From assembly GCA_014338185.1 (NCBI GenBank), contig QUBV01000004.1:1-64000 (forward strand): a stretch of DNA of 64,000 bases, written 5' to 3'. A program made the position numbers and the translations under genes. A model generated the notes under the pieces. That model made no database searches. It worked only from the letters and a program-made list of their open reading frames with translations, and was not told the DNA's origin. Shown one piece after another: positions 7,702 to 29,429 of the stretch. The stretch's first letter is position 1. The number at the start of each line of letters is the position of its first letter. The DNA comes from Lysobacterales bacterium (GTDB lineage Bacteria; Pseudomonadota; Gammaproteobacteria; Xanthomonadales; Rhodanobacteraceae).

Positions 7702-7702
7702 C

Positions 7703-9190
7703 ATGGCCGCATTGACGCTGTACCCCGAGTCCGAGCGCCTGCCACGCGGCGAGCGCATCACCTTCAACCTGTACATGATCAGCGCGCTGCTGCTGTTCGT
7801 GCTCATGATGGTGCTGGGCGTGATCATGCGCATGGGCCAGAGCCTGTGGCTGGACGTGCCACCGGACCTGTTCTACCAGGTGCTGTCGATGCACGGTGCG
7901 GGCATGGTCGGCACGATGTCACTGGCCACGACCGCGGTGATGTGGTTCTTCCTGCGCAAGTACGTGCGCCTGCATCTGTGGGCGTTCCTCGCCAACTACC
8001 TGCTGTTCCTGTGTGGCGCGCTGTGCATCATCGGCGCGGTCTTCGTCGGCCGCTATGCGGGCCTGTGGACGTTCCTGTATCCGTTGCCGACGCATGCGAT
8101 GGGCATGTGGGGCAATGGTGCGGCGGCCTGCTTCATGGTCGGCTACCTGTTCATTGGCGTCGGTTCGCTGCTGTTCTACCTCGACGCCGCGGCCGCCATC
8201 ATCGGCCGCTACGGCAATCTCGGTCGCGCGATGGGCCTGCAGTGGCTGTTCGGCGGCACGATCGATCCCGACCATCCCAAGGCCGTGGTCGCCAGCACGA
8301 TGGTCGTGATCGCCAACTCGCTCGGCATCCTCGCCGGCGCGGTGGTTCTGGTGATGTACCTGGTCGCGATCGCCTATCCCGAGTTCACGATGAACGCGTT
8401 GTATGCCAAGAACCTCACCTACTGGTTCGGCCACATGTACATCAACGCCACGATCTACATGGGTGTGATGGCCGTGTACGAGCTGCTGGCGCGCTACTCG
8501 GGGCGCCCGTATGCGATCTCGCGGCCGTTCCTGTGGTCGTGGGCGGCCAGCTGCGTGTTCGTGATCGTGGTGTTCCCGCACCACCTGCTCATGGACTACG
8601 CACAACCGCGCTGGGTTGCGGTCACCGGCCAGGTCGTGTCCTACCTTGCCGGCTTCCCGGTGTTCCTCGTCACCGTATGGGGCGCGCTCACCAACATCCA
8701 CCGCTCGGGCATGCGCTGGAGCACGCCCTCGCGCCTGCTCATCCTGTCGATGTTCGGCTGGGCAGCCGGCATCCTGCCGGCGATCCTCGATGGCACGATC
8801 GGCATCAATCGCGTCATGCACAATACGCAGTGGGTACCCGGCCATTTCCATTTCTATCTGCTGCTGGGCGTGTTGCCAATGGTGCTCGCGCTGCTGTACC
8901 ACGTGATCGGCAGCCGCCGCGCCGCGCCACCCGATTCGGGCGCGGATCGGCTGGGCGTGCCGGTGTACCTGATCGGCGGCATGACTTTCGCACTCGCGTT
9001 CCTCGATGCGGGCCACATGAGCGTGGCGCGGCGCATGTCCTCGCACCTGGCCGAGTGGATTCCCAACGACCGCGTCGGCGCGATCGGCGCGAGCCTGGTG
9101 TTGCTCGCGATGGTGTATTTCGCCGTGCGCATCATCCACGGCCTGCTGCGGGCACCCGGTGCCGAATCGACTGCGCACGCTGCTGGCTAG
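7703..9190 (+). CDS. norY: Heme-copper oxidase subunit I, probable sNOR-type NO reductase
   Basis: A 495-aa polytopic inner-membrane protein with every metal-binding histidine of the superfamily: H64 and H383 (low-spin heme), H381 (high-spin heme), and H244, H293 and H294 (copper or iron B). In oxygen-reducing A-type enzymes a cross-linked tyrosine sits four residues after the helix-VI histidine. Here that position is N248 (WFGHMYIN). That, plus the neighbours, suggests the CuA-linked NO reductase (sNOR) branch rather than a proton-pumping aa3 or ba3 oxidase, although a divergent oxidase cannot be excluded. The ATG 7703 follows GGAGG. Confidence 0.72.
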   Translation: MAALTLYPESERLPRGERITFNLYMISALLLFVLMMVLGVIMRMGQSLWLDVPPDLFYQVLSMHGAGMVGTMSLATTAVMWFFLRKYVRLHLWAFLANYLLFLCGALCIIGAVFVGRYAGLWTFLYPLPTHAMGMWGNGAAACFMVGYLFIGVGSLLFYLDAAAAIIGRYGNLGRAMGLQWLFGGTIDPDHPKAVVASTMVVIANSLGILAGAVVLVMYLVAIAYPEFTMNALYAKNLTYWFGHMYINATIYMGVMAVYELLARYSGRPYAISRPFLWSWAASCVFVIVVFPHHLLMDYAQPRWVAVTGQVVSYLAGFPVFLVTVWGALTNIHRSGMRWSTPSRLLILSMFGWAAGILPAILDGTIGINRVMHNTQWVPGHFHFYLLLGVLPMVLALLYHVIGSRRAAPPDSGADRLGVPVYLIGGMTFALAFLDAGHMSVARRMSSHLAEWIPNDRVGAIGASLVLLAMVYFAVRIIHGLLRAPGAESTAHAAG

Positions 9191-9779
9191 CCTCTGCATC
9201 GTGGCGGCAGGCGGCGCCGCGCTGTGGGTCGCCACCGATGGCTTGCGCGTATTCACGACCGAGACGGCGCGACGCGTCTCGATCCGCGCCACGCCGCGCC
9301 TGCTGCCCGACGTGGCCTTGCAGGACGATGCGGGTGCGCGGTTCGCGCTGGCCGACTTGCGCGGGCGCTGGCTGCTGGTGGATTTCATCTACACGCGCTG
9401 CCTGAGCTGGTGCAACGTGCTTGGTGGCGACTTCGCGCAGTTGCAGCAGCGCCTGGCTGCGCCGCTGCGCGATGGCAGCCTGCGCCTGCTCAGCATCAGC
9501 TTCGATCCCGCCCATGATGCACCGGCCGAGCTGGCGGCCCACAAGCGCAGGTTCGGCGATCATGGCATCGGCTGGACCGCGGCGCGGCCGCTCGACGCGG
9601 CCGGGCTCGCCACGCTCGGCCATGCCTTCGGCCTCAAGGTCGTCGAGGATGGCATGGGTGGCTACGTGCACAACGCATCGATCGCGTTGGTCGATCCGTC
9701 CGGCCGCCTCGTCGACGTGTTCGATGCGGGCGCACCCAGGCAGGTGGCCGCCGCGGTGCAACGGCGCCTCGCGCAATGA
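9159..9779 (+). CDS. senC: SCO1/SenC family copper chaperone
   Basis: Membrane-anchored thioredoxin-fold protein that delivers copper to, or reduces, the CuA site of subunit II. The 206-aa protein has an N-terminal membrane segment (residues 7-25), the metal-binding C81-x3-C85 and the distal H171 (GYVHNASIALVD). It starts at GTG 9159 inside the end of the subunit I gene (32-nt overlap) and ends in an ATGA overlap with the next gene, so the four genes form one operon. Confidence 0.88.
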   Translation: MPNRLRTLLASLCIVAAGGAALWVATDGLRVFTTETARRVSIRATPRLLPDVALQDDAGARFALADLRGRWLLVDFIYTRCLSWCNVLGGDFAQLQQRLAAPLRDGSLRLLSISFDPAHDAPAELAAHKRRFGDHGIGWTAARPLDAAGLATLGHAFGLKVVEDGMGGYVHNASIALVDPSGRLVDVFDAGAPRQVAAAVQRRLAQ

Positions 9780-10369
9780 GCGTGCGCGCGCTGCTGTGGT
9801 GGCTGCCCGCGGGCGCGATCGCGCTGTTGGCGAGTCCGCCGCTGCGGCATGCGCTGGAGACTTCGATGACCGCGCAGATGCTGCTGCAGCTGCCGCTGCT
9901 GGCGGTGCTCGGCGGTCTGCTTGCCGCGGCGCTGCCCACGCACGTGCGGACAGCGCTCGCGCGCTGGGACCAGGGCGGCTGCAGCGGCCTGCTGCTCGCC
10001 TCGGTCACCTCGTTGCTGTGGATGCTGCCGCGCGCGCTTGATGCGGGCGTGGACCTGCCATGGGTGGCCGGGGCCAAGTTCCTGAGCCTGCCGTTGCTGG
10101 TCGGGATGCCGCTGGCCTTGTCATGGCCACGCATGGGCTTCGTGCTGCGTGGCGTGGTGTGCATGGAAGCGATCGCGAGCTGCTTCCGGCTGGGCTGGCT
10201 GTTCCTCGCCACTCCGCAGCAGTTGTGCAGCAACTATCTGCTCGGCGACCAGCAGCGTCTGGGCTATGCGCTGCTCGCGATTGGCGGCGGCGTGTTCGTG
10301 CTGCTGCTCGGCCGCCTCATCGGCGGGCGCTGGACGCTGCCCGCCGGAGAAGCGCGGCGACCGCGTTGA
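9776..10369 (+). CDS. Polytopic membrane protein, orf1 of the norSY-senC cluster
   Basis: A 197-aa protein with about five hydrophobic segments and no domain I can name. Its place directly after the SCO gene, overlapping it by 4 nt, matches the orf1 described in norSY-senC-orf1 clusters of ammonia oxidisers. It contains cysteines in WDQGGCSGLLL, GVVCMEA, ASCFRLG and QLCSN that could bind metal. A role in oxidase assembly is a guess from context. It ends 10 bp from the convergent rapA stop. Confidence 0.65.
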   Translation: MSVRALLWWLPAGAIALLASPPLRHALETSMTAQMLLQLPLLAVLGGLLAAALPTHVRTALARWDQGGCSGLLLASVTSLLWMLPRALDAGVDLPWVAGAKFLSLPLLVGMPLALSWPRMGFVLRGVVCMEAIASCFRLGWLFLATPQQLCSNYLLGDQQRLGYALLAIGGGVFVLLLGRLIGGRWTLPAGEARRPR

Positions 10370-13364: not shown

Positions 13365-15203
13365 TCACGGGTCGGCGATACCCTTCGCGCGCACCATGAA
13401 GGCGCCACCCAGCGGCACGGTCGGCGGAATGTTGCGCGAGCCGAACTGCGCCGAAGCCAGGTCGTCGATCACGCTGGCAATGTCGGGCGAGTAGAAGAAC
13501 CACGAGTTCCCGCCGTCCGCGTCGCGGTCCACGCGCGCGGGCTTGTCCTGCCCGCCCATGAGCTTGGCGCTGGCGGCCACGTACAGCGCGCCGCTGACCG
13601 CGGTCGGCGGGATGGCGACCGCGTAGAACGCGTCATTGCTCACGTTGGGCGTCGCCTCCACGCGCGCCAGCACCTGGGCATTGCGCGGGTCGCCATCGGC
13701 ATCGCTGTCGCCGAGCAGCCAGAAGGTGACCGGACCGTGCTCGCGCGAGGGGAACGTGGGACCGAATGCGACTTCGATGCGGGTGATGATCTCGCCGCCC
13801 GCTTGCACCGGGTAGTAGTTGCCCCACAGCATGTCCGGATCGAAGCTCGACGGCGGCCCCTGGTTGGTGTCGCCATCGCCGTCGTCGTAGGCGTAGGTGA
13901 GCGGCGGGCCGTCGAAGCCATCGCGCAGCAGGGTATCGTCGACCATGGGCGCTGGCCGCTGCGCGTAGGCGACAAACACGCCGCTGCCCCATTCGACCTG
14001 GTTGTCGCCGAGCGGGTGCAGGCCGGCGACGAAGGCGATGTCGCCGTGGTTGTTGAGCGCGGGCGCGCCGCTGAACACCGGGCTCGCATCGTGCTGGCCG
14101 AGCTGGCCCGCGCCGAGGTCGGTGGACACCTCATCACCCGCGCCGACCACGCGCACGAGACCGTTGCCGTCGCCGGCGAAGATCGCTTGGCCGTTGGCAT
14201 CCTCGCCACGGAACACCACGAGTCCCGATGCGTTGATCGCAGGCGCGAAGGCGTCGATCGCGCGCACCGTGCCGGTCGGGTCCACACGCGCGATCTCGGT
14301 GGCCTGGTAGCCGCCGACGCCGGGCGTGAAGCGATACACAGCGCGCACGTTGCCGCTGGCGAGCGTCACCACCACCGCGATCGCGTCGGCATTGTTGAGC
14401 GCCAGGCCATTGTCGAACTTGGCAAATGGCGAGGCGGCGTCGGTGGCCTGGTCGGCCACCACCCGGCTGCCGTTGCCCGGTGCCTCGAACAGGCGGATCT
14501 CGTTGTGGTCGTAGTCGCTGCCACTGAGCTTGACCGCGATGTGCAGGGCGTCGTTGCCCGCGGGCGAGTAGATCCACGACCACGGGCTGGCGGCATCGAC
14601 GTTGGAATCGACCGCGTACAGCAGGTTGGCGCTGTAGCCGGCGAGGGCGATGCCATAGCCGGCGCCGAAGCGGCCGCGAAAGCCGATGCTGCGGTCGGAG
14701 CCGATCGCAGGATTGGCGATCGCGCTGGGCGTGAGCGGGCTGAGGCTGACCGGATTCGACTGGTTGCTCAGCGGGTCATAGCGGCGCAGCACGTAGGCCG
14801 CGCCGTCGTCGCTGGTGTAGTAGGCGAGCTTGCCGTGCAGGTTGATGCCGGGGCGGTCGCTGATGAGCATCGTGGCTCCGGGATCGCCGCTGGCCGGGGC
14901 GTGGATCGCCACGAACTGGCCCGCGCCATGGCCGCCGAACCAGATGCCTGCACCATAGCTGCCGGGGCTGCCCGCGATCGGCACCACCCCCGCGGTGAAG
15001 CTGACCTGGCCGGCGTCGTTGAGGTTGGCCGAGATGCTGTTGAACGAGGTGCCCGGCGGCACGTTCCAGCCATTGTCGTTGACGATGAGGTTGGTGCGCG
15101 CCTGCAGCTCGATCTGGTCGGTCACGGGCAAGGCCGCCGCCAACGGCAGCGCGTGCAGCGACAGGGCCACAAGGCCAGCAAGGGCGAGGCGTGATCCGGG
15201 CAT
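13365..15203 (-). CDS. Secreted NxxGxxAF-type repeat protein
   Basis: A 612-aa exported protein of unknown role. A signal peptide (residues 1-24, SLHALPLAAALP) is followed by repeats built on N-x-x-G plus hydrophobic strands, such as NLNDAGQVSFTAG, NASGLVVFRG and NNHGDIAFVAG. These fit the choice-of-anchor NxxGxxAF tandem-repeat family, probably a beta-rich extracellular fold. Near residue 430 it contains DDTLLRDGFDG, followed by a beta-sandwich-like C-terminal part. That motif resembles the C-terminal tails of three other secreted proteins here. ATG 15203 is preceded by GGAG. The gene is monocistronic. Confidence 0.8.
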   Translation of the reverse strand: MPGSRLALAGLVALSLHALPLAAALPVTDQIELQARTNLIVNDNGWNVPPGTSFNSISANLNDAGQVSFTAGVVPIAGSPGSYGAGIWFGGHGAGQFVAIHAPASGDPGATMLISDRPGINLHGKLAYYTSDDGAAYVLRRYDPLSNQSNPVSLSPLTPSAIANPAIGSDRSIGFRGRFGAGYGIALAGYSANLLYAVDSNVDAASPWSWIYSPAGNDALHIAVKLSGSDYDHNEIRLFEAPGNGSRVVADQATDAASPFAKFDNGLALNNADAIAVVVTLASGNVRAVYRFTPGVGGYQATEIARVDPTGTVRAIDAFAPAINASGLVVFRGEDANGQAIFAGDGNGLVRVVGAGDEVSTDLGAGQLGQHDASPVFSGAPALNNHGDIAFVAGLHPLGDNQVEWGSGVFVAYAQRPAPMVDDTLLRDGFDGPPLTYAYDDGDGDTNQGPPSSFDPDMLWGNYYPVQAGGEIITRIEVAFGPTFPSREHGPVTFWLLGDSDADGDPRNAQVLARVEATPNVSNDAFYAVAIPPTAVSGALYVAASAKLMGGQDKPARVDRDADGGNSWFFYSPDIASVIDDLASAQFGSRNIPPTVPLGGAFMVRAKGIADP

Positions 15204-15569: not shown

Positions 15570-15920
15570 TCAGGCCTTGTCGGCGTGGGCCGAGCACCAG
15601 CCCTTGGCATGCACCGACTTGCCCGGGAACAGCTGGCACGGGCCGTACTCACCGCTGCCGGCCGTGAAGAACTTGCAGTTGGCGCAGTCCTGGGTCGGCT
15701 TGTGGGTCGGAAACTTCTTGGCATCGACCGTGTTGGTGTCCTCGGTGTAGCCGAGTGCGGCCGCCGTCGGATCGGTCACCGCCAGGTGCGGCAGGTCATC
15801 GGCTTGCGCAAGACGTGGCAATACCGTCGCGGCCAGTGCCACGCCGGCACCGATACCGGTGGTCTTGAGGAAGCGGCGACGGCCTTGATCGACCGTGGGC
15901 TGATCGAGCTTGCTGGGCAT
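15570..15920 (-). CDS. High-potential iron-sulfur protein (HiPIP), Tat-exported
   Basis: A small periplasmic one-electron carrier with a [4Fe-4S] cluster. The 116-aa precursor has a twin-arginine signal (RRRFLKTTGIGAG, residues 14-26, cleaved near residue 40), which fits a cofactor-loaded export substrate. Cluster ligands are C79, C82, C95 and C109 in the HiPIP spacing. ATG 15920 is preceded by AGGAG. HiPIPs carry electrons between cytochrome complexes and oxidases, or in PioC from an outer-membrane iron oxidase. The MtrAB-type operon 3.5 kb away suggests such a role, but the genes are not in one operon. Confidence 0.93.
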   Translation of the reverse strand: MPSKLDQPTVDQGRRRFLKTTGIGAGVALAATVLPRLAQADDLPHLAVTDPTAAALGYTEDTNTVDAKKFPTHKPTQDCANCKFFTAGSGEYGPCQLFPGKSVHAKGWCSAHADKA

Positions 15921-16129
15921 GTGCAATCTCCTGGCTGGCTCAGCCGATGCTGAGGCCTCGACCATGCGCCGATCGACCGCGCCTTGCAAGGGGGCTGGCC
16001 AGTGTGTTCGGCAGCGTGAACGCTCGCGCGCAACGCCTGCGATTGGCGATGCGAATCACTTGCAGTTCGCGCCAGCGCGCGATGTGTCCCGGCGCACACG
16101 CACGCGTGCCGGTGCTGCGGCAAACACCG

Positions 16130-16135
16130 TATGCT
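16130..16135 (+). promoter_or_regulatory. Candidate -10 element for the P1B ATPase gene
   Basis: TATGCT followed by CGCGCG lies 79 bp before the proposed GTG start, in the 294-bp divergent region between the HiPIP and ATPase genes. No clear -35 was seen. No other feature was found in that region. Confidence 0.3.
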
Positions 16136-16214
16136 CGCGCGTGGCGCCGGGTGCCGGCGGTGGCGCCGCGCATGTCGCTGATTGCATGCGCCGGCCTGTT
16201 GCGTGGGAACTGTC

Positions 16215-18506
16215 GTGTTTGATCGCTGGCGGGTTGACCTGGGGTTGTTCGTCGTGTGCGTGGCCGGGCTCGCGAGCGGTGCGGTGGCGTGGCTCGCGGG
16301 TGCACGGGGCGTGGCGGCGTTGGCCTGGATCGGCGCGGCGGTGACCGCGCTGTTGCCCTTGGTGTGGCAGATTCTGGCGGCGCTGCGGCGCGGTGGCGCC
16401 GGCGTCGACGTGCTCGCGCTCGCCGCGATCGTCGGCGCGCTGCTGCTGCACGAGAACCTCGCCGCGGCGGTGATCGCGGTGATGTACGCGGGCGGAACCC
16501 TGCTCGAAAGCCATGCCGAGCGGCATGCGCGGCGCGAGATGTCGGCGCTGCTGGCGCACGCGCCGCGCAGCGCACTGCGCTACGAGGCGGGCCAGCTGGT
16601 GGAGGTGGCGCTGGAGGCGCTGCGCGCCGGTGACCGGCTGCTGGTGCGCCACGGTGCGGTGATCGCGGTCGATGGCGTGCTGGTGGATGAGCGCGCGGTG
16701 CTCGACGAGTCCACGCTCACGGGTGAGTCGCTGCCGGTCACGAGCCTGCGCGGCGACCATTTGCGCAGTGGTGCGATCAACACGGGTGACGCCTTCGAGA
16801 TGGTGGCCACCGCGGTCGTGGCCGACAGCACCTTCGCCGCGGTGGTGCGGCTGGTGGAGCAGGCGCAGCAGTCGCGTGCGCCGGCGGTGCGGCTGGCCGA
16901 CCGCTACGCGATGTGGTTCGTGCCGGTGGCCGCGGTGCTCGCGGTCCTCGCGTGGGTGGCCAGTGGCGACCCGCTGCGCGCGCTCGCGGTGGTGGTGGTG
17001 GCCACGCCATGCCCCCTGCTGCTGGCGGTGCCGATCGCGCTGGTGTCGGGCATCTCGCGCTGCGCCCGCCGCGGCATCCTGGTCAAGGATGGGGGCGCGC
17101 TGGAAAGCCTCGCGGCGAGCCAGACGCTGTTCTTCGACAAGACCGGTACCTTGACCGGTGGCCAGGCGCGCCTGGTCGGCATCGAGACCGCCGGCGGCAC
17201 CAGTGCCGATGAACTGCTCGCGTTGACCGCCTCGCTCGAGCAGATGTCCAGCCACGTGCTCGCGACCGCGGTGGTGGCGGCAGCGCGCCGGCGCAAGTTG
17301 CCGCTGCAGGTTCCACAGGAAGTCAGCGAAGTCGCGGGCGCGGGGATCAGCGGGCGCATCGGCGCAGTGACGCTCGCCGCGGGCTCGCTCGACTACATCG
17401 GCCGTCGCGTCAGCGTGCCGCCGGCGATTGGTGGCGCGCTCGAGCGCGCCACCGCTGAAGGCGCGTCGGCGGTGCTGGTTGCGCGCGATGGCCACTTTGC
17501 CGGCCTGCTGCTGTTGGCCGACCAGTTGCGCATGGAGGCGCCGCGCGCGCTGCGCCTGTTGCGGCGCAGTGGCATCGGCCGCATCGTCATGCTCACCGGC
17601 GATCGGCGCGAAGTGGCCGAGGCGATCGGCGCCGGCCTGGGCGTGGATGAGGTGCTGGCGGAGCGCACGCCCGCGGGCAAGCTCGCGGTGATCAAGGCCG
17701 CGCGCGCGCACGGGCGCACCGTGATGGTTGGCGATGGCGTCAACGATGCGCCGGCCTTGGCCGCGGCCGACGTCGGCGTGGCGATGGGCGCGCGCGGCGC
17801 CACCGCTTCGGCCGAAGCGGCCGACATCGTGCTCATCGCCGATCGCCTGGACCGGCTGGCCGAGGCACTGCGCATCGCGCGCGGCACGCGCGCGATCGCA
17901 CTGCAGAGCGTGTTCGCGGGCATGGGCCTGTCGCTGCTGGCGATGGTCGTGGCGGCGCTGGGCTACCTGCCGCCGCTGTATGGCGCCGCGCTGCAGGAAG
18001 TCATCGACGTTGCGGTGATCCTCAATGCGCTGCGCGTGCTGCGGATCCAGCCGCTACGCACGAGCCAGTATCGACTGGCACCGGCCGAGGCCGAGCGCCT
18101 GCATGCGGAACATCGCGAGCTCGAACCGGTGCTCGACCGCCTCACCACGGTGGCCGATCGCCTGCCCGGCCTGCAGGGGGCGGCCCTGCTCGGCGCGGTG
18201 CAGGAAGTGGAGGCGATGCTGCGCGAGCGTATCCTGCCGCACGAGCAGGCCGACGACCATCAGGTCTATCCCGCGATCGCCGCGTTGCTGGGCGGCGACG
18301 ACCCGCTCGCGGCGATGAGCCGCACCCACCGCGAGATCTTCCGCCTGCACCGGCGCCTGGCGGCGGCGACGGAGCGTCTGGCCACGTCCGGTGATGATGC
18401 GGGGGCGGTACAGGACGTGCAGCGCACGCTGCACGCGCTCGATGCGATCCTGCGCCTGCATTTCCTCCAGGAAGAGGAGATCTACCAGAACCTCGCGCCC
18501 GACTGA
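16215..18506 (+). CDS. P1B-type metal ATPase with C-terminal hemerythrin domain
   Basis: A 763-aa inner-membrane transporter. P-type motifs: TGES (169-172), phosphorylated D308 in DKTGT, GDGVNDAP (506-513). The membrane metal site is TPCP (264-267) instead of the CPC of copper or zinc pumps, the signature of the P1B-5 subgroup linked to iron, nickel and cobalt. H347 in SSHVLA replaces the usual HP motif. There is no N-terminal metal-binding domain. Residues 628-763 form a hemerythrin-like four-helix domain (HEQADDH, THREIF, HFLQEEEIY), as described for the Acidothermus P1B-5 ATPase. It probably exports Fe(II) or a similar ion and senses iron or oxygen through a di-iron site. GTG 16215 is chosen; GTG 16203 is possible. 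Confidence 0.85.
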   Translation: MFDRWRVDLGLFVVCVAGLASGAVAWLAGARGVAALAWIGAAVTALLPLVWQILAALRRGGAGVDVLALAAIVGALLLHENLAAAVIAVMYAGGTLLESHAERHARREMSALLAHAPRSALRYEAGQLVEVALEALRAGDRLLVRHGAVIAVDGVLVDERAVLDESTLTGESLPVTSLRGDHLRSGAINTGDAFEMVATAVVADSTFAAVVRLVEQAQQSRAPAVRLADRYAMWFVPVAAVLAVLAWVASGDPLRALAVVVVATPCPLLLAVPIALVSGISRCARRGILVKDGGALESLAASQTLFFDKTGTLTGGQARLVGIETAGGTSADELLALTASLEQMSSHVLATAVVAAARRRKLPLQVPQEVSEVAGAGISGRIGAVTLAAGSLDYIGRRVSVPPAIGGALERATAEGASAVLVARDGHFAGLLLLADQLRMEAPRALRLLRRSGIGRIVMLTGDRREVAEAIGAGLGVDEVLAERTPAGKLAVIKAARAHGRTVMVGDGVNDAPALAAADVGVAMGARGATASAEAADIVLIADRLDRLAEALRIARGTRAIALQSVFAGMGLSLLAMVVAALGYLPPLYGAALQEVIDVAVILNALRVLRIQPLRTSQYRLAPAEAERLHAEHRELEPVLDRLTTVADRLPGLQGAALLGAVQEVEAMLRERILPHEQADDHQVYPAIAALLGGDDPLAAMSRTHREIFRLHRRLAAATERLATSGDDAGAVQDVQRTLHALDAILRLHFLQEEEIYQNLAPD

Positions 18507-18540
18507 GGGCTTGCGGCAGCCTGGCTCGGCCGCCGGCACC

Positions 18541-18556
18541 GGATGGCGTGCCATCC
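18541..18556. repeat. Short perfect inverted repeat between convergent genes
   Basis: GGATGGC-GT-GCCATCC lies between the stops of the ATPase and cytochrome genes. Without a T-run it is at best a weak bidirectional terminator. The rest of the 171-bp gap shows nothing. Confidence 0.35.
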
Positions 18557-18677
18557 CGGATCGCTTGGGGTCGGGTGACGCGGCAGGTGCGCGTGCGTCA
18601 CGGGCCTGGCGGCCACGCGGCAAGCGTGGGCATCGGTATGCGTCGCGTGCGGGCCATGCCGCGCGGGTGCAGCGCGG

Positions 18678-19394
18678 CTAGCGCTCGGGCGTGCCCGGGC
18701 GCGAGACCAGCCATGCGGCCAACCCATCGATCGCGGCGTCGTCGAGCCCGCGTGCGACGCCGTTCATGATGAAGTCGTTGCTCGAGTTGGGTGGATCGCC
18801 ATCGCGATAAGCGCGCAGGCGCGCAGCAAGGTAGGCGGGGTGCTGGCCCTGCAGGACCGGCCAACCCGGGCGCTGCGCGATGCCTTCGCCGTCGGCGCCA
18901 TGGCAGCCCTGGCAGGGCGGCACGCCGCGTTGGGGATCGCCGCCGCGGAAGATCTGCCCACCCAGCGCGATCGCGGCGGGGTCCGCCGCTGCATCGCTGG
19001 CGTGGGCGAGTGGCTGCGAGGCAAAGAACACCGCGAGGTCACGCACATCCTGGTCGCTCAGCGGTGTGAGCTGTTCGGTCATCGGCGACTGGTAGCGATA
19101 GCCGTGCTTGAGCTCGACCAGCTCCCAGTAGAGGAAGTCCGCACGCTGGCCACCGAGGTTGGGAAAGGTCGGCACCGGCGTGTTGCCATCCTGGCCGTGG
19201 CAGGCGCGGCACACCTCGGACTTGGCCTTGCCGGCTGCGGCGTCGCCGTGGATCGGCGCATGCCCGCGCTTGTCGAGCCACTTGGCGGGCGCAACGGGCT
19301 TGGCGGCAGATTGTGCCTGCGCATTCACGGTGGCCGGCAACAACAGGGGCAGCGCCGCGAGCAGGGCCAGGCAGGGCATCGTCTTGGAGGTCAT
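18678..19394 (-). CDS. Periplasmic diheme cytochrome c (c4-like)
   Basis: A 238-aa protein with a signal peptide (residues 1-25, ATVNAQA) and two class I cytochrome c domains. Heme sites are CRACH (62-66) and CQGCH (161-165). Likely axial methionines are M105 and M210 (FIMNGVARGL). It begins 10 bp after the outer-membrane protein gene and is the last gene of the mtrA-mtrB-cyt operon, so it probably shuttles electrons between the decaheme conduit and the inner membrane. General c4 cytochromes also serve oxidases, so its partner is inferred from position. Confidence 0.88.
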   Translation of the reverse strand: MTSKTMPCLALLAALPLLLPATVNAQAQSAAKPVAPAKWLDKRGHAPIHGDAAAGKAKSEVCRACHGQDGNTPVPTFPNLGGQRADFLYWELVELKHGYRYQSPMTEQLTPLSDQDVRDLAVFFASQPLAHASDAAADPAAIALGGQIFRGGDPQRGVPPCQGCHGADGEGIAQRPGWPVLQGQHPAYLAARLRAYRDGDPPNSSNDFIMNGVARGLDDAAIDGLAAWLVSRPGTPER

Positions 19395-19404
19395 CGGGGC
19401 CACC

Positions 19405-21975
19405 TCACAGCTGCACGTTGAGGAGCACGCCGACCAGGTTGGCGCGATAGCTCTGCGGACCACCGTCGGTGTACACACGATGGTCGATCACGCGCGTCTG
19501 GTCGAAGCCGGCGTAGTGCCAGTCGCTCACGGTGCCGCGTTCGTAGTAATCGAATATGCGCAACGACACTCGATCGATGACCGGAATCGTCACGCCCAGC
19601 GTGAGCGACTGGGTGCGATAACGCATGTCCGGGAACGCGCCTGCACCGGGGCCCGTGGCCGGCCCAAGGGCGGGATAGCCCAGTGCGATGGCACTGGCAT
19701 AGCTGTAGCTGTCGCGCCCACGGGCGTTGATGAAGTTCCAGCTCGCATCCAGCCGCACGCGGCGGATACGGTGGTCGAGGGTGGCCCCGGCATAGGTGTT
19801 GCGTTGCGAGTCATGCAGCCACCACTGGCCGGACAGCGCATAGTTGGGGCCGCCCAGGTGGGGGTCGATGCCGGCGCCGTTCTGCTGGTCCTGCACGTTG
19901 CTCATGCGCAGGCGTGAACGGTCCCACGCGCCGTACAGGCTCACGTGGGTGGTCGAGGCCGGTTGCCACTCCCACTGCAGGGTCGCGCTGTGGGTGTTGT
20001 ACTGCTGCCGCCCGATCGCGGCGTCGTAGGAGTTCCAGTCGCCGCGCAGCGACGCCGATATCGTCATGTCATCGCGCGGCATGAACGTCGCCATCACGTC
20101 GAGCTTGTTGAGCGTGCGGTTGGGCAGGTCGTACTTGCGCATCGCTTCGACCGTGTGCGATGGCACGCCCCCCGGCGGCGGCTCGAATCCGTCGAGGTGG
20201 ACCGAGTAGATGAAATGGTAGGGGTCGTAGTTGTAGCGGTCGCCATCGGAATCCTTCCAGCTGTAGTTCACGCGCAACGTCAACCAGTCGAGCGAACGAT
20301 TGATCCAGGTGAGCTTGAGGCTCGTGTCATCCACGCGTTGCCGCTCGCGGTTGGTGGGCTCGAAGCGGTTGAAGGCCAGTGTTGCGCCCAAGGTGTTGGA
20401 GCCATCGATGCGCCAGTCGGCGCCGACATCGGCATCGATCGTCTGCAGGTCGAGCGGCAGGCTGCGTACGTGGGTGATGACGTCGGCGGCGCGGATCGGA
20501 TGGAAGATGCCTGCTTCGCCCGGCACGATGCTGCCCTGTGAGCCGTTCTCGGCGACGTAGCCGTAGTCCCCCGTGAGGGGATTCCAGGCCAGGTAGCCGT
20601 TGCGATAGTCGTCGCGATTGAAGCGCAAGCCGCCGCGCAGCGACCACGCCGTGGCCGGTTGCAGCGAGATGCGTGCGTCCACCAGCGTGGTGTCGATGCT
20701 CATGTCGGCGCTGCGGCGCGACAGTGCCGCGGGCGTGTTCCACTGCGAACAGTCGAACAGGAACGGATTGGCCGGGCCAAGCTGCAGGTTGCCACCCAAG
20801 CCGATGCCGAACACGCCTTGACAGTCGATCGGGGCGATCAACGCGTCGTTCTGGCGCATGCGTCCGCCCGAGGCGGTGATGGACAACTCGCCGTTGAGCG
20901 GCAGCTTGCGCGTGAAGGCCGCCTTGAAATTGTGGTAGTCGTTGTCCGGTTCCATCGCCATCTGGCCAGTGGTCAGCGGCGCGGCAGCCGAGCCCGGGAT
21001 CACGGCCCACATCGCGAACGGCATCTGGTAGGTGTAGCGCGAGTAGCGGTCGCGGTAGAACGAGCCGCTGTAGGTCAGGTCCATGCGCCAGGTGCGCCCT
21101 GCGTAGCGCAGTCCCGCATTGAGATTGAGCGTGTGGTCGTCGATCGGCTTGGGGGTCTCGAGGATGCCGCCGTTGCCGGGGAACGGGAAGTTGAAGAAGA
21201 ACGGGCCGCCGTACGGACGAGCACCCTTGCGCTGCTCATCGCTGAGGTCCGCGAACACGGTCCATTGCGGTGCGAGGAACATGTTGAAGCCGAGCCCCTG
21301 CTTGGAGCGCTTCACCGACAGCCGGCGCTCGGGCGTCGCTGCCAATACCGCCGCCACCTGGTCGGGCGTGCTCGCGGCAGGCGTGAGGCCGGCCGGCAGC
21401 GTGAGCGCGTTGCTGCCCACGCCGTTCCACAACGACTTGGCGTTGTGGCTGAGGATGTTGGGCATGTCGCGCAGGAAGGCCTGCACCTTGTAGCTGCCGG
21501 CGCGGCCAAACACCGCTTGGTAGTACTGGTCGTCCTCGCTGATGCGACTGGCGCGCACGTTGGCATAGGTGCCGTCGGCCGGGCGCTGCCAAGTGTAGTC
21601 GAGCAGGCCGAGGATGAGGCCGCTGTCCCAGTCGGCGTAGCGGTTCCACAACGCATTGTGGTCATCACCCGAGGTGGCCAATGCGCCCACCTGCAGGACG
21701 CCATAGCCGACCCACTGCCCGAACGTATCCACCTGCGGCATGTCCGCCGGGCACATGTACAGGTTGCCGGTGGGTGAGCGACGCTGGCCATCGATGAGCC
21801 AGCTGGTGCCGCGCGCGTCGGCGCTGGCACCCGCGGCGCCTGCGCTCGGATCAAGCTTGGTGCCGCGCCAGGTGTCGACGCCGATGCCGCTGTCGGCCAC
21901 GGCGGATGAGGCGAATGCAAGCGCGAGTGCGACGGGCAGCGCGCGCAGTGGCAAGGGCAGTCGCTGCATGGACAT
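19405..21975 (-). CDS. mtrB: MtrB/PioB-family outer-membrane beta-barrel protein
   Basis: An 856-aa outer-membrane protein with a signal peptide (residues 1-27) followed by long alternating beta-strand sequence typical of the decaheme-associated MtrB/PioB/DmsF barrels. These barrels sheath a decaheme cytochrome and make an electron-conducting pore. The N-terminal region has one cysteine (LYMCPADMP) where Shewanella MtrB has a CxxC pair. It lies 15 bp after the decaheme gene and 10 bp before the diheme cytochrome, with GGGAGGAAG before ATG 21975. No MtrC-like surface cytochrome follows, which resembles iron-oxidising MtoAB and PioAB more than iron-reducing MtrCAB. Confidence 0.85.
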   Translation of the reverse strand: MSMQRLPLPLRALPVALALAFASSAVADSGIGVDTWRGTKLDPSAGAAGASADARGTSWLIDGQRRSPTGNLYMCPADMPQVDTFGQWVGYGVLQVGALATSGDDHNALWNRYADWDSGLILGLLDYTWQRPADGTYANVRASRISEDDQYYQAVFGRAGSYKVQAFLRDMPNILSHNAKSLWNGVGSNALTLPAGLTPAASTPDQVAAVLAATPERRLSVKRSKQGLGFNMFLAPQWTVFADLSDEQRKGARPYGGPFFFNFPFPGNGGILETPKPIDDHTLNLNAGLRYAGRTWRMDLTYSGSFYRDRYSRYTYQMPFAMWAVIPGSAAAPLTTGQMAMEPDNDYHNFKAAFTRKLPLNGELSITASGGRMRQNDALIAPIDCQGVFGIGLGGNLQLGPANPFLFDCSQWNTPAALSRRSADMSIDTTLVDARISLQPATAWSLRGGLRFNRDDYRNGYLAWNPLTGDYGYVAENGSQGSIVPGEAGIFHPIRAADVITHVRSLPLDLQTIDADVGADWRIDGSNTLGATLAFNRFEPTNRERQRVDDTSLKLTWINRSLDWLTLRVNYSWKDSDGDRYNYDPYHFIYSVHLDGFEPPPGGVPSHTVEAMRKYDLPNRTLNKLDVMATFMPRDDMTISASLRGDWNSYDAAIGRQQYNTHSATLQWEWQPASTTHVSLYGAWDRSRLRMSNVQDQQNGAGIDPHLGGPNYALSGQWWLHDSQRNTYAGATLDHRIRRVRLDASWNFINARGRDSYSYASAIALGYPALGPATGPGAGAFPDMRYRTQSLTLGVTIPVIDRVSLRIFDYYERGTVSDWHYAGFDQTRVIDHRVYTDGGPQSYRANLVGVLLNVQL

Positions 21976-21990
21976 GGTCGGCTTCCTCCC

Positions 21991-23043
21991 TCACTCGTGG
22001 AACCGCGGACCCGACGGCGCGTTGGAGCCGTGGATGTTGGCGTGGCAGGTCAGGCAGGCGCGTCCCATGATGCGCTCGTCGGGATTGCTGCCGGTTGCGA
22101 GCGATTGCGAGGTGAGCAGGTCGTTGGGGTGGCGCTGACCGGTGTGGCATTGCTGGCAAAGGAACGGTACCGGCGCGACCAGCAGCGTGTTCTGGTTGGA
22201 GCCATGCGGTGAATGGCAATTGAGGCAGTTTTCACGCACGGGCGCGTGTTCGAACAGGAATGGCCCGCGCTTTTCGGCATGGCATTGGTAGCAGGTCTCG
22301 TTGACCGTGTTGGTCTTGAGCAACGGGCTGGTGATCGAGCCATGCGGATTGTGGCAATCGGCGCAGCTCATCTGCCCTTCCGGCAGCGGCATGTGCGAGC
22401 GGCGGTTGAACTGTACGCGCACGTCTTTATGGCATTGCGCGCAGGTGTCGCTGATCGAGTTCCGGGCCATGAAGCCTTCGCCCGAGAAGTTGGCCATCGG
22501 GTTGTGGCAATCGCTGCAGGACAGGCCGTTGCGCTGGTGGACCGAGCCGCTCCAGTGGTCGCGCGGACCACCCTTGTGGCAATTGAGGCAGGTTGCGGTC
22601 TGCACCTCGATCGGGGTGCCGCCCGCCTTGGTGAACGCGATGATCGTGCCCTTCTCGAATGGCGCCTGCGCATGGCGCGAACCCGGCCCGTGGCAGGCCT
22701 CGCACACCGGGACCGAGGCGTCGGCCTGGTTGGCGGCGTGCAGTCCGAGCGAATGCAGCGTGTGGGTGAAGTGGTCGGCTTCGAGCTGGTGGCAGGAGAT
22801 GCAGGTCGCCTCACCCACCGCGGTGGCGTCGGGAGCGCCCGGGTTGTGCGGCACGCGCGCGCGGGCAAAGCCCGGCGCCGCCAGCAGCTGGCTGCGCGTG
22901 GCCTGAACCTCGCCGCCGGACAGGTTGGAGGAGGGCAGCCGGGCGGCCAGTTGCTCGCGCGTCTGTTGCGCGTGCAGGCCCGTGCCGTGGCTGAACAATG
23001 CTCCGGTGAAGAGCAGGATCGCTGTCGTGCGCAGCAGGCTCAT
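21991..23043 (-). CDS. mtrA: Decaheme c-type cytochrome, MtrA/DmsE family
   Basis: A 350-aa periplasmic multiheme cytochrome: signal peptide (residues 1-25) and exactly ten CxxCH sites (CISCH, CEACH, CLNCH, CSDCH, CAQCH, CADCH, CYQCH, CLNCH, CQQCH, CLTCH). The length is near MtrA (333). In the family it sits inside an MtrB barrel and wires the periplasm to the outside. It is the first gene of a three-gene operon and is divergent from a LysR gene. DmsE, used for extracellular DMSO reduction, is in the same family, but no DMSO reductase genes are near. The ATG 23043 is preceded by GGGGGAAG. Confidence 0.92.
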   Translation of the reverse strand: MSLLRTTAILLFTGALFSHGTGLHAQQTREQLAARLPSSNLSGGEVQATRSQLLAAPGFARARVPHNPGAPDATAVGEATCISCHQLEADHFTHTLHSLGLHAANQADASVPVCEACHGPGSRHAQAPFEKGTIIAFTKAGGTPIEVQTATCLNCHKGGPRDHWSGSVHQRNGLSCSDCHNPMANFSGEGFMARNSISDTCAQCHKDVRVQFNRRSHMPLPEGQMSCADCHNPHGSITSPLLKTNTVNETCYQCHAEKRGPFLFEHAPVRENCLNCHSPHGSNQNTLLVAPVPFLCQQCHTGQRHPNDLLTSQSLATGSNPDERIMGRACLTCHANIHGSNAPSGPRFHE

Positions 23044-23195
23044 CGTTCGCTTCCCCCGGTTGCCGGCGAACACAGGCAATGTCGCGCCCGTTGCGTGTTG
23101 CGCAGCCCGATCGTTGCGGGTGCGACAATTTGCCCTGCGTGCCCGGAGTGTCGGCCGTGGTTCAGCACTTGACCAGCCTGCATTGCGGAAAAGAT

Positions 23196-23213
23196 CGTTC
23201 GGGAAATCGAACG
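23196..23213. promoter_or_regulatory. Palindromic operator candidate in the mtrA-lysR gap
   Basis: CGTTCG-GGAAAT-CGAACG is a perfect 6-bp palindrome with a 6-bp spacer between the divergent mtrA and lysR genes. Its right half AATCGAACG recurs exactly 50 bp further on. The position suits a LysR-type recognition site. Confidence 0.5.
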
Positions 23214-23254
23214 CTGCAGCCCACGCGGGCGTCGCGTTGGATGCTGCACTGAAC

Positions 23255-23284
23255 AATCGAACGTGCCGCGCGCGTTGCTATGCT
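23255..23284 (+). promoter_or_regulatory. lysR promoter candidate overlapped by operator half-site
   Basis: TATGCT at 23279-23284 is a candidate -10. The -35 position 17 bp upstream falls inside a second AATCGAACG (23255-23263). Binding there would block lysR transcription, which fits autorepression. Confidence 0.38.
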
Positions 23285-23308: not shown

Positions 23309-24265
23309 ATGTCCAGCGATCTCAATGACCTGCTGTACTTTGCCAGGATCGTCGAGCACGGCAGCCTGAGCGCCGCCAGCGAGGCGCTGGGCGTGTCCAA
23401 GTCGTTGTTGAGCCAGCATCTGGCACGGTTGGAAGGGCGCATCGGCGTACGCCTGATCCATCGCACCACGCGCAAGCTGCAGGTGACCGAAGTCGGCCAG
23501 CGCTACTACGAACGCTGCCGCAGCGTGCTGGAGGAAATCGCGCGTGCCGATGAGGTCATCGCCGACGCGCGTGGCACGCCGCGTGGCCTCGTGCGCGTGG
23601 CCTGTCCGGTCAATTTCGCGCAGATGGTGATGGCGCCCGTGTTCGTCGACTTCATGCGCAGCCATCCCGAGGTCGAGCTCGCGGTCGAGGTCACCAATCG
23701 CGAGATCGACCTCATTGGCGAGCATTGCGACGTCGCACTGCGCATCGCCTCGAACGTGCGCACTTCGAGCTATGTCGTGCGCACCTACCCGGTCGCGCGG
23801 CACGTTCTGGTCGCCAGCCCCCGGTTCATCGCCGAGCATGGCCCGCTGCGCGTTCCCGAGGACCTGCGCGGCCGACCGAGCTTGTGCGGCATTCGCGGCA
23901 GTGCCGACCGGCCGGTGTGGATGCTGGAGGACGGACGCGGCGCGTCGCGCCTCATCAACCATTCGCCGCGAATGCGCACCGAAGACCTGGTGCTGCTGCA
24001 ACAGGCCGCGCTCGACGCCTGTGGCATCGCCGAGCTGCCGCCCGTGGTGTGCCGTGATGAGCTTGCGGCGGGCTCGCTGGTGCGCTTGCTGCCGCAGTGG
24101 TCGCTGCCCGAGATGAACCTGTACGTGCTGTTCCTGGCGCGCTCGGGACTTGCCCCCGCGGTGCGCTGCTTCGTCGACTACCTGTCCATGCGCATGCGCG
24201 AGGGGCTTGGCGCGAGCATCGCCGGCGCCGCGCCGCTGAGCCTGGTGAGGGGCGGCCGCGCCTGA
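23309..24265 (+). CDS. LysR-family transcriptional regulator
   Basis: A 318-aa DNA-binding regulator. Residues 1-60 form the winged helix-turn-helix (LNDLLYFARIVEHGSLSAAS and ALGVSKSLLSQHLARLE). The rest is a substrate-binding domain of the DNA-binding AaeR/CrgA-like type. Start ATG 23309 has GGGGAGGA at the right distance. It is divergent from the mtrA operon across 265 bp that hold AATCGAACG repeats, so it likely controls that operon and itself. It ends 6 bp from the convergent ccmE stop. The inducer is unknown. Confidence 0.9.
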   Translation: MSSDLNDLLYFARIVEHGSLSAASEALGVSKSLLSQHLARLEGRIGVRLIHRTTRKLQVTEVGQRYYERCRSVLEEIARADEVIADARGTPRGLVRVACPVNFAQMVMAPVFVDFMRSHPEVELAVEVTNREIDLIGEHCDVALRIASNVRTSSYVVRTYPVARHVLVASPRFIAEHGPLRVPEDLRGRPSLCGIRGSADRPVWMLEDGRGASRLINHSPRMRTEDLVLLQQAALDACGIAELPPVVCRDELAAGSLVRLLPQWSLPEMNLYVLFLARSGLAPAVRCFVDYLSMRMREGLGASIAGAAPLSLVRGGRA

Positions 24266-24271
24266 GCGCGG

Positions 24272-24748
24272 TCAGTGCGCAGTGTCGGTGCCGGGCGTGG
24301 CCGGCGCGCCGCCGCCGGCTTCGACATGCTTGGCCTTTTCGATCGCGTCGCGCACTTCGGGCGGCATGTAGGTTTCGTCGTGCTTGGCCAGCACTTCGGT
24401 GGCGATGAAGCGATCGCCGTGCAGCGAGCCGGTCGCGACGATGCTCTGCCCTTCGCGGAACAGGTCGGGCAGGATGCCGGTGTACTCCACCTGCATCTGC
24501 TTGAAGCGGTCGGTCACGATGAAATCGACCTTGAGCGAATCGCTGGCGCGCTGGATCGAGTGCTCGAGCACCACGCCCCCGAGGCGGAAGCGCGCACCGG
24601 TCGGCGCATGCCCGGCGGCGACTTCGCTGGGCGAGTACAGGTAGGTCATGTTCTGCTGCAGGGCGAGCACGGTGAGCCCGGTGGCGATGCCGACCGCCGC
24701 GAGCACGAGGCCGACGAGGATGAGGCGACGCTTGCGGACCGGGTTCAT
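24272..24748 (-). CDS. ccmE: Cytochrome c maturation heme chaperone CcmE
   Basis: Membrane-anchored periplasmic protein that holds heme covalently and passes it to CcmF. The 158-aa protein has one N-terminal membrane helix (residues 9-29) and an OB-fold domain with heme-binding H123 and Y127 in [12 protein letters not shown]. The start overlaps the ccmD stop by 4 nt. It is the last ccm gene here. ccmF, ccmG and ccmH are not in the window and must lie elsewhere if the system is complete. Confidence 0.96.
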
Positions 24749-24933
24749 GGACTGCCCCCGTGCTCGCGTTGCTCGCGAGCGGCGCGGCGTTGCAGGCGGC
24801 CGCGGATGTCGGCGAGCACGCGCCGCCGCTGTGCGAGCGGAGCCAGCGCGTCGAGCGCGAGCACCCCAACGAACACGCCGATCGAAGCCCACACGTAGAA
24901 CGCGTAACCACCCATTGTGATGAACTCAGCCAC
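24745..24933 (-). CDS. ccmD: Heme exporter accessory protein CcmD
   Basis: A 62-aa single-helix membrane protein ([20 protein letters not shown]) that helps release heme-loaded CcmE from CcmC. I chose GTG 24933 because AAGGAG sits 6 nt upstream and the resulting [15 protein letters not shown] matches CcmD N-termini. The internal ATG at 24915 has no such site. It overlaps the ccmC end by 8 nt. Confidence 0.88.
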
Positions 24934-25687
24934 CTGCGGCTCCTTCGTCGAGCGCCACCTTGCGCACCCAGTCCTTGCCACCTTCAAGTTGCAGCAGCGC
25001 GATGCGCGCGCGCATGAGCACGCTGCCGAAGAACCAGATATGGGTCGCCAGCGCCATCAGCAACAGCGGCCAGGCCATCGCCGCGTCGATCTTCGACGGA
25101 CCCATCAGACGGATGGTCGAGCCCTGGTGCAGCGTGTTCCACCAGGTCACCGAAAAATGCACGATCGGCAGGTTGACCACGCCGATCAGGGCGAGGAAGC
25201 CGGCCGCGCGCGCGGCTTGGCGGCGGTCCTCGATCGCCGCGTTGAGGCCGATTACGCCCAGGTACAGGAACAGCAGCACCAGTTCCGAGGTCAGGCGCGC
25301 GTCCCAGGTCCACCAGGTGCCCCACATCGGCTTGCCCCACAGCGCCCCGGTGACCAGTGCGATGAAGGTGAAGGCCGCGCCGACCGGCGCGCTCGCCATC
25401 GCAAGGATCTCGCTGAGCTTGATGTGCCACACCAGCGCGATGAAGGCATTGGCGGCCATGAACGCGTAGGCGAACAGGCTCATCCACGCCGCCGGCACGT
25501 GCACGAAGATGATGCGGTAGGCATCGCCTTGCTGGTAGTCGCGCGGCGCGAGCACCAGCCCGCTGTACAGCGCCACCAACCCGAGCAGCAGACCGATGCC
25601 GTAGCACCACGGCAGCAGCAGCCCGGCCAAGCGGTAGAACGTCGGCGGCGAGCCGAGCTTGTGGAACCACAGTGTGAGGATGTTCAT
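24926..25687 (-). CDS. ccmC: Heme handling protein CcmC
   Basis: A 253-aa six-helix inner-membrane protein that loads heme onto CcmE. The tryptophan-rich WWD motif (WGTWWTWDARLTSE, near residues 123-136) and the heme-ligand histidines H63 (FVHVP) and H187 (NTLHQG) are all present. The ATG overlaps the ccmB stop. Confidence 0.97.
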   Translation of the reverse strand: MNILTLWFHKLGSPPTFYRLAGLLLPWCYGIGLLLGLVALYSGLVLAPRDYQQGDAYRIIFVHVPAAWMSLFAYAFMAANAFIALVWHIKLSEILAMASAPVGAAFTFIALVTGALWGKPMWGTWWTWDARLTSELVLLFLYLGVIGLNAAIEDRRQAARAAGFLALIGVVNLPIVHFSVTWWNTLHQGSTIRLMGPSKIDAAMAWPLLLMALATHIWFFGSVLMRARIALLQLEGGKDWVRKVALDEGAAGG

Positions 25688-26363
25688 GAGATCGAGATCC
25701 GCAGCGCCGCGGCGCAGGCCAGCGGCGCAAGCACGAGGGCCAGGACGAGGGCCGCGGCCAGCCACAGCAGCGGCGCCAGGAACGGCAGGCCCGCCTGCGC
25801 GGCATTGCAGGCGCCGGCACCGAAGATGAGGACCGGCACGTACAGCGGCAGCACCAGCAGCGCGAGCAGCATACCAGAGCGGTGCATGCCCACGGTGAGC
25901 GCCACGCACACCGCGCCGAGCAGGCTCAGCAGCGGCGTCGCCAGCAACAGCGCGAGCAGCAGCACCCCGCGCACCGCAACGGGCAGGTGCAGCATCTCGC
26001 CCAGCAGCGGTGCGACCGCGATGAGCGGCAGCGCGGTGGTCAGCCAGTGCACCGCGATCTTGCAGGCGAGCAGCAGCGCCAGCGGGTGCGGCGACAGCAC
26101 CAGCTGCTCCAGCGAGCCATCCTCGTAGTCGCTGCGGAACAGCGTGTCGAGCGCCAGCAGGCCGGCCAGCAGCAGCGCAACGAACACGATGCCCGCGGCG
26201 ATGCGCCGCAGCTGCTCGGGTTCGGGACCCAGCGCAAGCGGAAACAGCGCCACCACCATGAGTGCGAACAGGATCGGGTTGAGCGCGTCGCCGCGCCGGC
26301 GCCACACCAGCGTGAGGTCGCGCCGCACCAGCGCGGCGCAGGCACCCGCGGTGCCGCCCGGTT

Positions 26364-26367
<4 letters not shown>
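25684..26367 (-). CDS. ccmB: Heme ABC exporter membrane subunit CcmB
   Basis: A 227-aa protein with about six membrane helices, the permease partner of CcmA. With CcmC and CcmD it releases holo-CcmE using ATP. The family motif DYEDGSLEQLVLSP is visible near residue 82. The start MKPGGTAGA overlaps the ccmA stop by 4 nt. Confidence 0.95.
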
Positions 26368-27032
<665 letters not shown>

Positions 27033-28809: not shown

Positions 28810-29364
28810 TCAGGCCGGGCTGGCCATCGTCGCCGCGAGCAGGGCGCGGGCGGCCTGCCAGTCGCGCTTGATGGTGCGCTCGTTGAGGCCTTCCAGTTCG
28901 GCGATCTCGCCAAAGCCGAGCCCGCCGAAGAAGTGCAACTGCACCACGCGCGCGGCGCGCGCATCGACCTTCTCCAGTTCACCCAGCGCCTGGTCGAGCG
29001 CGAGCACCTCGGCGGCCTCGGTCGGTGCCTCGGGGATGCGATCGTCGAGCGTGACCAGCGCCAGGCCACCGCCGCGCTTGTCGGCATTCAAGCGCCGCGC
29101 ATGATCGACCAGCACCTGGCGCATCGCGCGCGCGGCCAGCGCCATGAAGTGCTGGCGGCTGTCCAGTTGCAGGCGTTCGGCCGCGACGAGCTTGACATAG
29201 GTTTCGTGCACGAGCGCCGTGGTCGACAGCGTGTGGTCGGCACCACGCAACTGGCGATGCGCGCAGTGGTGCAGCTCGTCGTAGAGCAGGCGGAACAGGC
29301 GGTCGTGGGCGTCGCGGTCACCGCCCTGGGCCGCGCCGAGCAGTCGGGTGATGTGGTCGCTCAT
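28810..29364 (-). CDS. ECF-type RNA polymerase sigma factor
   Basis: A 184-aa sigma factor with region 2 (GDRDAHDRLFRLLYDELHH) and region 4 helix-turn-helix (LGFGEIAELEGLNERTIKRDW). It resembles the ECF group often encoded next to Ser/Thr kinases. Here the kinase gene ends 65 bp upstream on the same strand. No anti-sigma factor is seen, so control by phosphorylation is a reasonable guess. The ATG 29364 gives the normal family N-terminus. Confidence 0.9.
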   Translation of the reverse strand: MSDHITRLLGAAQGGDRDAHDRLFRLLYDELHHCAHRQLRGADHTLSTTALVHETYVKLVAAERLQLDSRQHFMALAARAMRQVLVDHARRLNADKRGGGLALVTLDDRIPEAPTEAAEVLALDQALGELEKVDARAARVVQLHFFGGLGFGEIAELEGLNERTIKRDWQAARALLAATMASPA

Positions 29365-29429
29365 CGAAAGGTGCTTGCGCCAGGTCCAGGCGTGGAACGA
29401 TACAGCATCGTCGTGCGGGATCGCTCCGG

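Follow-up and report, generated by a model that had tools for sequence, protein, structure and literature searches.

A PioA-like decaheme, barrel and cytochrome c4 operon in a Rhodanobacteraceae genome: a candidate conduit for electron uptake across the outer membrane

Introduction

A 64-kb stretch of DNA from a bacterium of the family Rhodanobacteraceae (order Xanthomonadales), hereafter the window, holds genes whose products resemble parts of PioABC, the phototrophic Fe(II) oxidation system of Rhodopseudomonas palustris TIE-1. This raises the questions of (i) whether these genes encode an electron conduit of that kind; (ii) in which direction, and from which donor, electrons would pass through it; and (iii) whether a high-potential iron-sulfur protein (HiPIP) and a P1B-type ATPase encoded nearby belong to it. 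A literature search, which left most subscription papers outside its reach, turned up no publication on the operon in Xanthomonadales. However, MtoAB-like proteins have been reported in Rhodanobacter (PMC11366258), so that conduits in the family are not wholly new.

Results

The operon and its products

The assembly containing the window comprises 3.17 Mb and has a completeness rating of 99.99%. The features relevant here are:

15570..15917, minus strand: Tat-exported HiPIP (PF01355, E=7e-23; Tat signal RRRFLKTTG)
16182 or 16215..18506, plus strand: P1B-type ATPase with TPC motif and hemerythrin domain (E1-E2 ATPase, HAD and hemerythrin domains; ATPCPLL motif)
18678..19394, minus strand: diheme cytochrome c4, periplasmic (two CxxCH; best PDB match 6q2u, E=1.2e-42)
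19405..21975, minus strand: MtrB/PioB-type outer-membrane barrel, 856 aa (PF11854, E=1.7e-89; 6r2q chain B)
21991..23043, minus strand: decaheme MtrA/PioA-type cytochrome (ten CxxCH; TIGR03508, 261.7 bits; 6r2q chain A, E=6.6e-61; heme-ligand table)
23309..24265, plus strand: divergent LysR-type regulator (PF00126 and PF03466; synteny)
24272..27032, minus strand: ccmE, ccmC, ccmB and an ABC ATPase at the ccmA position (ccmA assigned solely from its position and an ABC motif)

A preliminary description of this DNA had named five of these genes, all of which profile searches and the open reading frame list recovered in place. Its assignment of the decaheme, barrel and diheme genes to one operon is borne out by their common strand and by gaps of only 15 bases (mtrA-mtrB) and 10 bases (mtrB-diheme); its count of exactly ten CxxCH motifs in the decaheme holds; its Tat-exported HiPIP is confirmed by the PF01355 match and the Tat signal; and its diheme cytochrome is present and can be refined to a cytochrome c4. 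Across the window, CxxCH has 15 matches in the DNA where 5.5 are expected, and 12 of the 15 lie inside the decaheme and diheme genes. The LysR gene adjoining the operon is kept there in several genera, as judged by synteny, and may regulate it, while the ccm genes beyond are general cytochrome c maturation genes. The window further encodes a secreted NxxGxxAF-repeat protein of the MXAN_5453 type adjoining the HiPIP gene (13365-15170, minus strand) and an ECF sigma factor beside a protein kinase that has a long tail of tetratricopeptide repeats (28810-32354, minus strand).

The decaheme open reading frame extends from 21991 to 23256, the likely start being the ATG at 23043, which gives a product of 350 amino acids with its first heme cysteine at residue 81, signal peptide included. 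On the basis of its ten CxxCH motifs and its homology to MtrA (33 to 43% identity with Shewanella MtrA), this protein belongs to the MtrA/PioA family; Pfam and NCBIfam group it with MtrA/DmsE decahemes. Close PDB relatives of the decaheme and the barrel are chains A and B, respectively, of the Shewanella baltica Mtr complex 6r2q, and an AlphaFold model of the decaheme, of moderate quality (pLDDT 69), matches 6r2q chain A, agreeing with an MtrA fold. The long N-terminal extension of PioA, about 200 aa in strain TIE-1, is absent from the window decaheme.

The barrel, whose PF11854 match adjoins the decaheme gene, is grouped with MtrB/PioB by both Pfam and NCBIfam, its score against TIGR03509 (229 bits) lying under the 240-bit cut-off. 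The third gene encodes two class-I cytochrome c domains, and its best matches among solved structures are c4 proteins (6q2u, 1etp and 1h1o) that cover both halves; we conclude that it is a cytochrome c4.

Partner genes in the genome

As the preliminary description had proposed, no MtrC-like surface cytochrome is present: the genome has no match to TIGR03507 (MtrC/OmcA-type), and none is encoded in the locus. Nor did the genome yield matches to PF03264 (NapC/CymA-type quinol dehydrogenases), PF00124 (photosynthetic reaction centres) or RuBisCO. A terminal oxidase is available, as ccoN of a cbb3 oxidase scores above its cut-off and several further COX1-type genes are found.

These searches bear on an alternative, previously raised, in which the conduit would be of the DmsEF type and serve an extracellular reductase for DMSO or a similar molybdenum enzyme, as the NCBIfam label 'DmsE family' for the decaheme might suggest. 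However, nuoG is the sole molybdopterin-oxidoreductase match (PF00384) in the genome, a DMSO-type reductase was found neither there nor in the locus, the surroundings are not DmsEF-like, and DmsE is a low-potential protein (PMC12203936). We have therefore dropped the label, and we regard this alternative as largely refuted, with virtually no probability left to it.

Five kilobases from the HiPIP gene, at 7132-10369 on the plus strand, lies a divergent heme-copper oxidase cluster encoding a short COX2-like protein, a COX1-like protein, SCO1/SenC and an unknown protein. The COX1-like product reaches only 45 bits against CtaD and has the helix motif GHMYINATIY where HPEVY is usual, and the cluster could specify an unusual oxidase or an NO reductase.

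Two methionines at distal heme-ligand positions

When 150 decahemes are aligned, histidine is conserved outside CxxCH at exactly ten columns of the His/His group, a number equal to that of the hemes; in window numbering these are positions 97, 124, 169, 183, 218, 234, 266, 280, 305 and 338. Both 183 and 218 are methionine throughout the group to which the window decaheme belongs (100 of 100 sequences, PioA of Rhodopseudomonas included), and the remaining eight positions are mostly histidine. Shewanella-type MtrA has histidine at 183 and 218, and decahemes outside the Met groups have it at one or both. The two methionines recur in the decahemes from Rhodopseudomonas, Rhodomicrobium and Afifella, organisms in which a pioC-like HiPIP gene follows the barrel gene. 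This signature is a clue that the preliminary description overlooked.

In S. baltica MtrA, every heme has bis-His ligation (PMC7198977), while His/Met ligation in PioA was published by Li et al. 2020, as cited in PMC10304953 and PMC12203936. Reported potentials range from -400 to +250 mV for PioA, from -400 to -100 mV for MtrA and from -360 to -90 mV for DmsE (PMC12203936). By analogy with PioA, we infer His/Met ligation in the window decaheme, and with methionine at two distal positions at least one high-potential heme is therefore to be expected. Position 183 is the sole clear ligand change, because the histidine beside Met218, His217, is invariant throughout the Met/Met group and could serve as the ligand instead. 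The abstract by Li and colleagues reportedly describes His/Met ligation at hemes 2 and/or 7 as a feature of PioA homologues in over 30 genera, and part of the Met/Met group may thus already have been noticed there. Only the second position is methionine in decahemes of Elusimicrobia, Acidobacteria and others (loci L177, L178, L181, L188, L193, L195, L196 and L198), possibly an intermediate state.

The shared fold and gene pair, together with the ability of Mtr-type conduits to run both ways, would also suit an outward wire that, like Shewanella MtrAB, delivers electrons to an extracellular acceptor. However, neither a CymA-type quinol dehydrogenase nor MtrC was found, and the methionine ligands and the c4 and HiPIP partners imply a high potential, which is poorly suited to Fe(III) minerals. 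We consider outward flow distinctly unlikely.

Phylogeny of the decaheme and the barrel

In a decaheme tree built without the ligand columns, the window sequence falls within a clade of 54 rows (support 100/100) that lies nearest to the one containing PioA (88/85), while His/His decahemes accompanied by surface-cytochrome genes lie elsewhere. Constraining all Met/Met rows to a single clade was not rejected (p-AU 0.575) and gave a slightly better score. In the barrel tree, the window group likewise forms its own clade (100), apart from PioB, to which its tie is unsettled. The phylogenetic comparison proposed at the outset thus places the decaheme nearest to the PioA clade and, since the clades are separate, identifies the system as a variant beside PioAB rather than PioAB itself.

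Distribution and gene context

A decaheme match was detected in 86 of the 233 genomes of the family, representing 16 of 26 genera; a few of these are of a distant His/His type. It also occurs in some Lysobacteraceae, and the one match on a plasmid is distant. The nearest named relative of the window locus, at 90% identity, is in a Dokdonella MAG, and named relatives identify the family as Rhodanobacteraceae. Among the named carriers are Dokdonella, Dyella, Frateuria, Rhodanobacter, Pseudoxanthomonas, Luteimonas and Stenotrophomonas; more distant ones are Thauera, Aromatoleum, Rhodoferax, Methylobacter, Thiorhodococcus and Verrucomicrobia. Nearly all opened loci of the window's type keep the order decaheme-barrel-c4, and betaproteobacterial loci frequently have two diheme genes.

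Among loci with enough flank to be counted, surface multiheme genes accompany none of 69 Met/Met loci, in contrast to 16 of 31 His/His loci (Fisher p 2e-10), while a c4-like diheme gene is present in 55 of the 69 and only two of the 31 (Fisher p 2e-12); as the sequences are related, p-values that ignore kinship overstate the evidence, and there were too few independent changes for a comparison by pairs. The second copy at L071 was set to zero by hand, the 'surface cytochrome' flagged there being the tandem decaheme itself.

The family also harbors a second decaheme-barrel type, of the His/His kind (L072 in genome G032, and L093-L096), and genome G168 has both types. In G032, a Dokdonella relative, a tetraheme NapC-family gene lies about 2.8 kb from the His/His decaheme on the same contig. 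Duplicated mtrA-mtrB-c4 operons are found at L071 (G041), at L074 (G213) and at C12 and C13 of G036, and are in tandem in two genomes.

The HiPIP and the ATPase

The gene at 15570-15917 encodes the sole HiPIP found in the window genome, its closest solved relative being 1hlq. As 223 of the 233 family genomes have HiPIP genes, mere presence is uninformative and was dropped as evidence for the system; position alone is informative. In the window, the HiPIP gene lies downstream of the operon on the same strand, separated from the c4 gene by the opposite-strand ATPase, and the preliminary description had held its place outside the operon to weaken the link. In the window itself the position is as described. 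However, in ten genomes from three genera (G031, G037, G040, G209, G213 and G227-G231), a HiPIP gene lies a few kilobases downstream of the decaheme on the same strand, and among opened loci it directly follows c4 in L062-L064, L073, L074, L077 and L126. Since the HiPIP gene is operon-linked in these relatives, the doubt is largely answered.

The synteny check proposed with that doubt went the other way for the ATPase. P1B-5 ATPases are defined by a TPC motif and a C-terminal hemerythrin domain, and the predicted domains and ATPCPLL motif of the window protein fit this label, as first assigned. Its gene adjoins the operon elsewhere only in G038, the nearest relative; we therefore dropped it as a component of the system, and its place between c4 and HiPIP is probably incidental. 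That same place would favor a further alternative, in which the region is an island for iron handling or detoxification, comprising the HiPIP and the hemerythrin-domain ATPase, with the wire oxidizing excess Fe(II). Since most relatives' operons are without the ATPase, we judge this very improbable.

Discussion

The proposed route of electrons

The system is conserved and real, and it is a variant of the PioA-type wires, its function being deduced from its parts. The reading that we favor, and consider somewhat more probable than all others combined, is a high-potential porin-cytochrome conduit of the PioA type that takes up electrons and feeds them through c4 and HiPIP toward high-potential oxidases. 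A ten-heme wire would lie inside the outer-membrane barrel, assuming that the two form a complex, with no extracellular cytochrome cap. Electrons would come from a reductant outside the cell, for example Fe(II), reduced minerals or reduced humics, run along the wire to cytochrome c4 in the periplasm and also, in Dokdonella and two related genera, to HiPIP, and from c4 or HiPIP presumably reach a cbb3- or aa3-type oxidase. This reading is supported by the two methionines shared with PioA, by the nearness of the PioA clade, by the reach of PioA to +250 mV and its transfer of electrons to PioC, by the Met/Met loci being without surface cytochromes and with c4, by the operon-linked HiPIP gene of ten genomes, by CymA, MtrC and a DMSO reductase not having been found, and by the presence of cbb3. 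Against it speaks the missing N-terminal extension, given that PioA with this long extension has been described as restricted to phototrophs (PMC6831781).

That electrons flow inward and that Fe(II) is the donor are both deductions; by analogy with PioAB, Fe(II) would be the likeliest donor, reduced humics a possible one. Because no RuBisCO or reaction centre was found, the conduit would add energy to a heterotrophic metabolism rather than support iron autotrophy or phototrophy. A Rhodanobacter isolate is cited in PMC11366258 as unable to oxidise Fe(II) alone, which speaks against simple iron lithotrophy.

The same uptake wire might instead draw on humic or lignin hydroquinones, or provide redox protection at the cell surface, rather than serve iron. 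The named carriers are mostly heterotrophic genera and the window genome yielded no RuBisCO, both of which suit organic reductants. However, PioAB, the nearest characterised relative, uses Fe(II) and electrodes as electron sources (PMC6831781), and we consider an organic or protective role unlikely.

Returning to the conduit that feeds c4 and high-potential oxidases, it is conceivable, although we would not yet presume it, that such wires form a large further class beside PioAB in soil heterotrophs, supplying terminal oxidases through c4 with unrecognised auxiliary electrons from iron or humics. The breadth that this implies, across Xanthomonadales, several betaproteobacteria, Methylobacter and Verrucomicrobia, we propose just as tentatively. 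The methionine signature with the c4 operon occurs in over a third of sampled species of the family, and no phototrophy genes came to light in the genome of the window host. If the proposal is true, electron uptake from minerals or humics would be an ordinary option for many heterotrophs of soil and sludge, and the operon is carried by culturable genera (Dyella, Rhodanobacter, Frateuria and Dokdonella). Automatic annotation merges these wires with those of the MtrA/DmsE type as 'DmsE family'; two methionines, an adjacent c4 gene and no MtrC or CymA would provide a sequence mark that separates them.

Comparison with known systems

The likeness to PioAB that the preliminary description had drawn holds, and more strongly than was apparent there, although the system falls short of PioABC itself. 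The decaheme and barrel, the same two His-to-Met changes, the lack of a surface cytochrome, the nearness of the PioA clade and a HiPIP gene that is nearby in the window and inside the operon in some relatives are all shared, and PioA is known to hand electrons to the HiPIP PioC (PMC10304953). In contrast, the window decaheme belongs to a separate clade and has no long N-terminal extension, its operon has a c4 gene rather than a HiPIP gene after the barrel, and its host has no detected reaction centre or RuBisCO.

MtoAB of Sideroxydans lithotrophicus ES-1 is alike in comprising a decaheme and a barrel without an MtrC gene, and in its uptake role, but no CymA/ImoA-type gene was found in the window genome; the MtoA sequence lay outside our comparison. 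MtrCAB of Shewanella shares the MtrA and MtrB homologues (6r2q chains A and B), whereas the window system has neither MtrC nor CymA and carries two His-to-Met changes. The DmsE-family label of NCBIfam is common to DmsEF and the window decaheme, while the locus and genome of the latter are without a DMSO-type reductase. Finally, the third gene shares its family with cytochromes c4, including the c4-type cytochromes of acidophilic iron oxidisers, but differs in being encoded in one operon with an outer-membrane wire.
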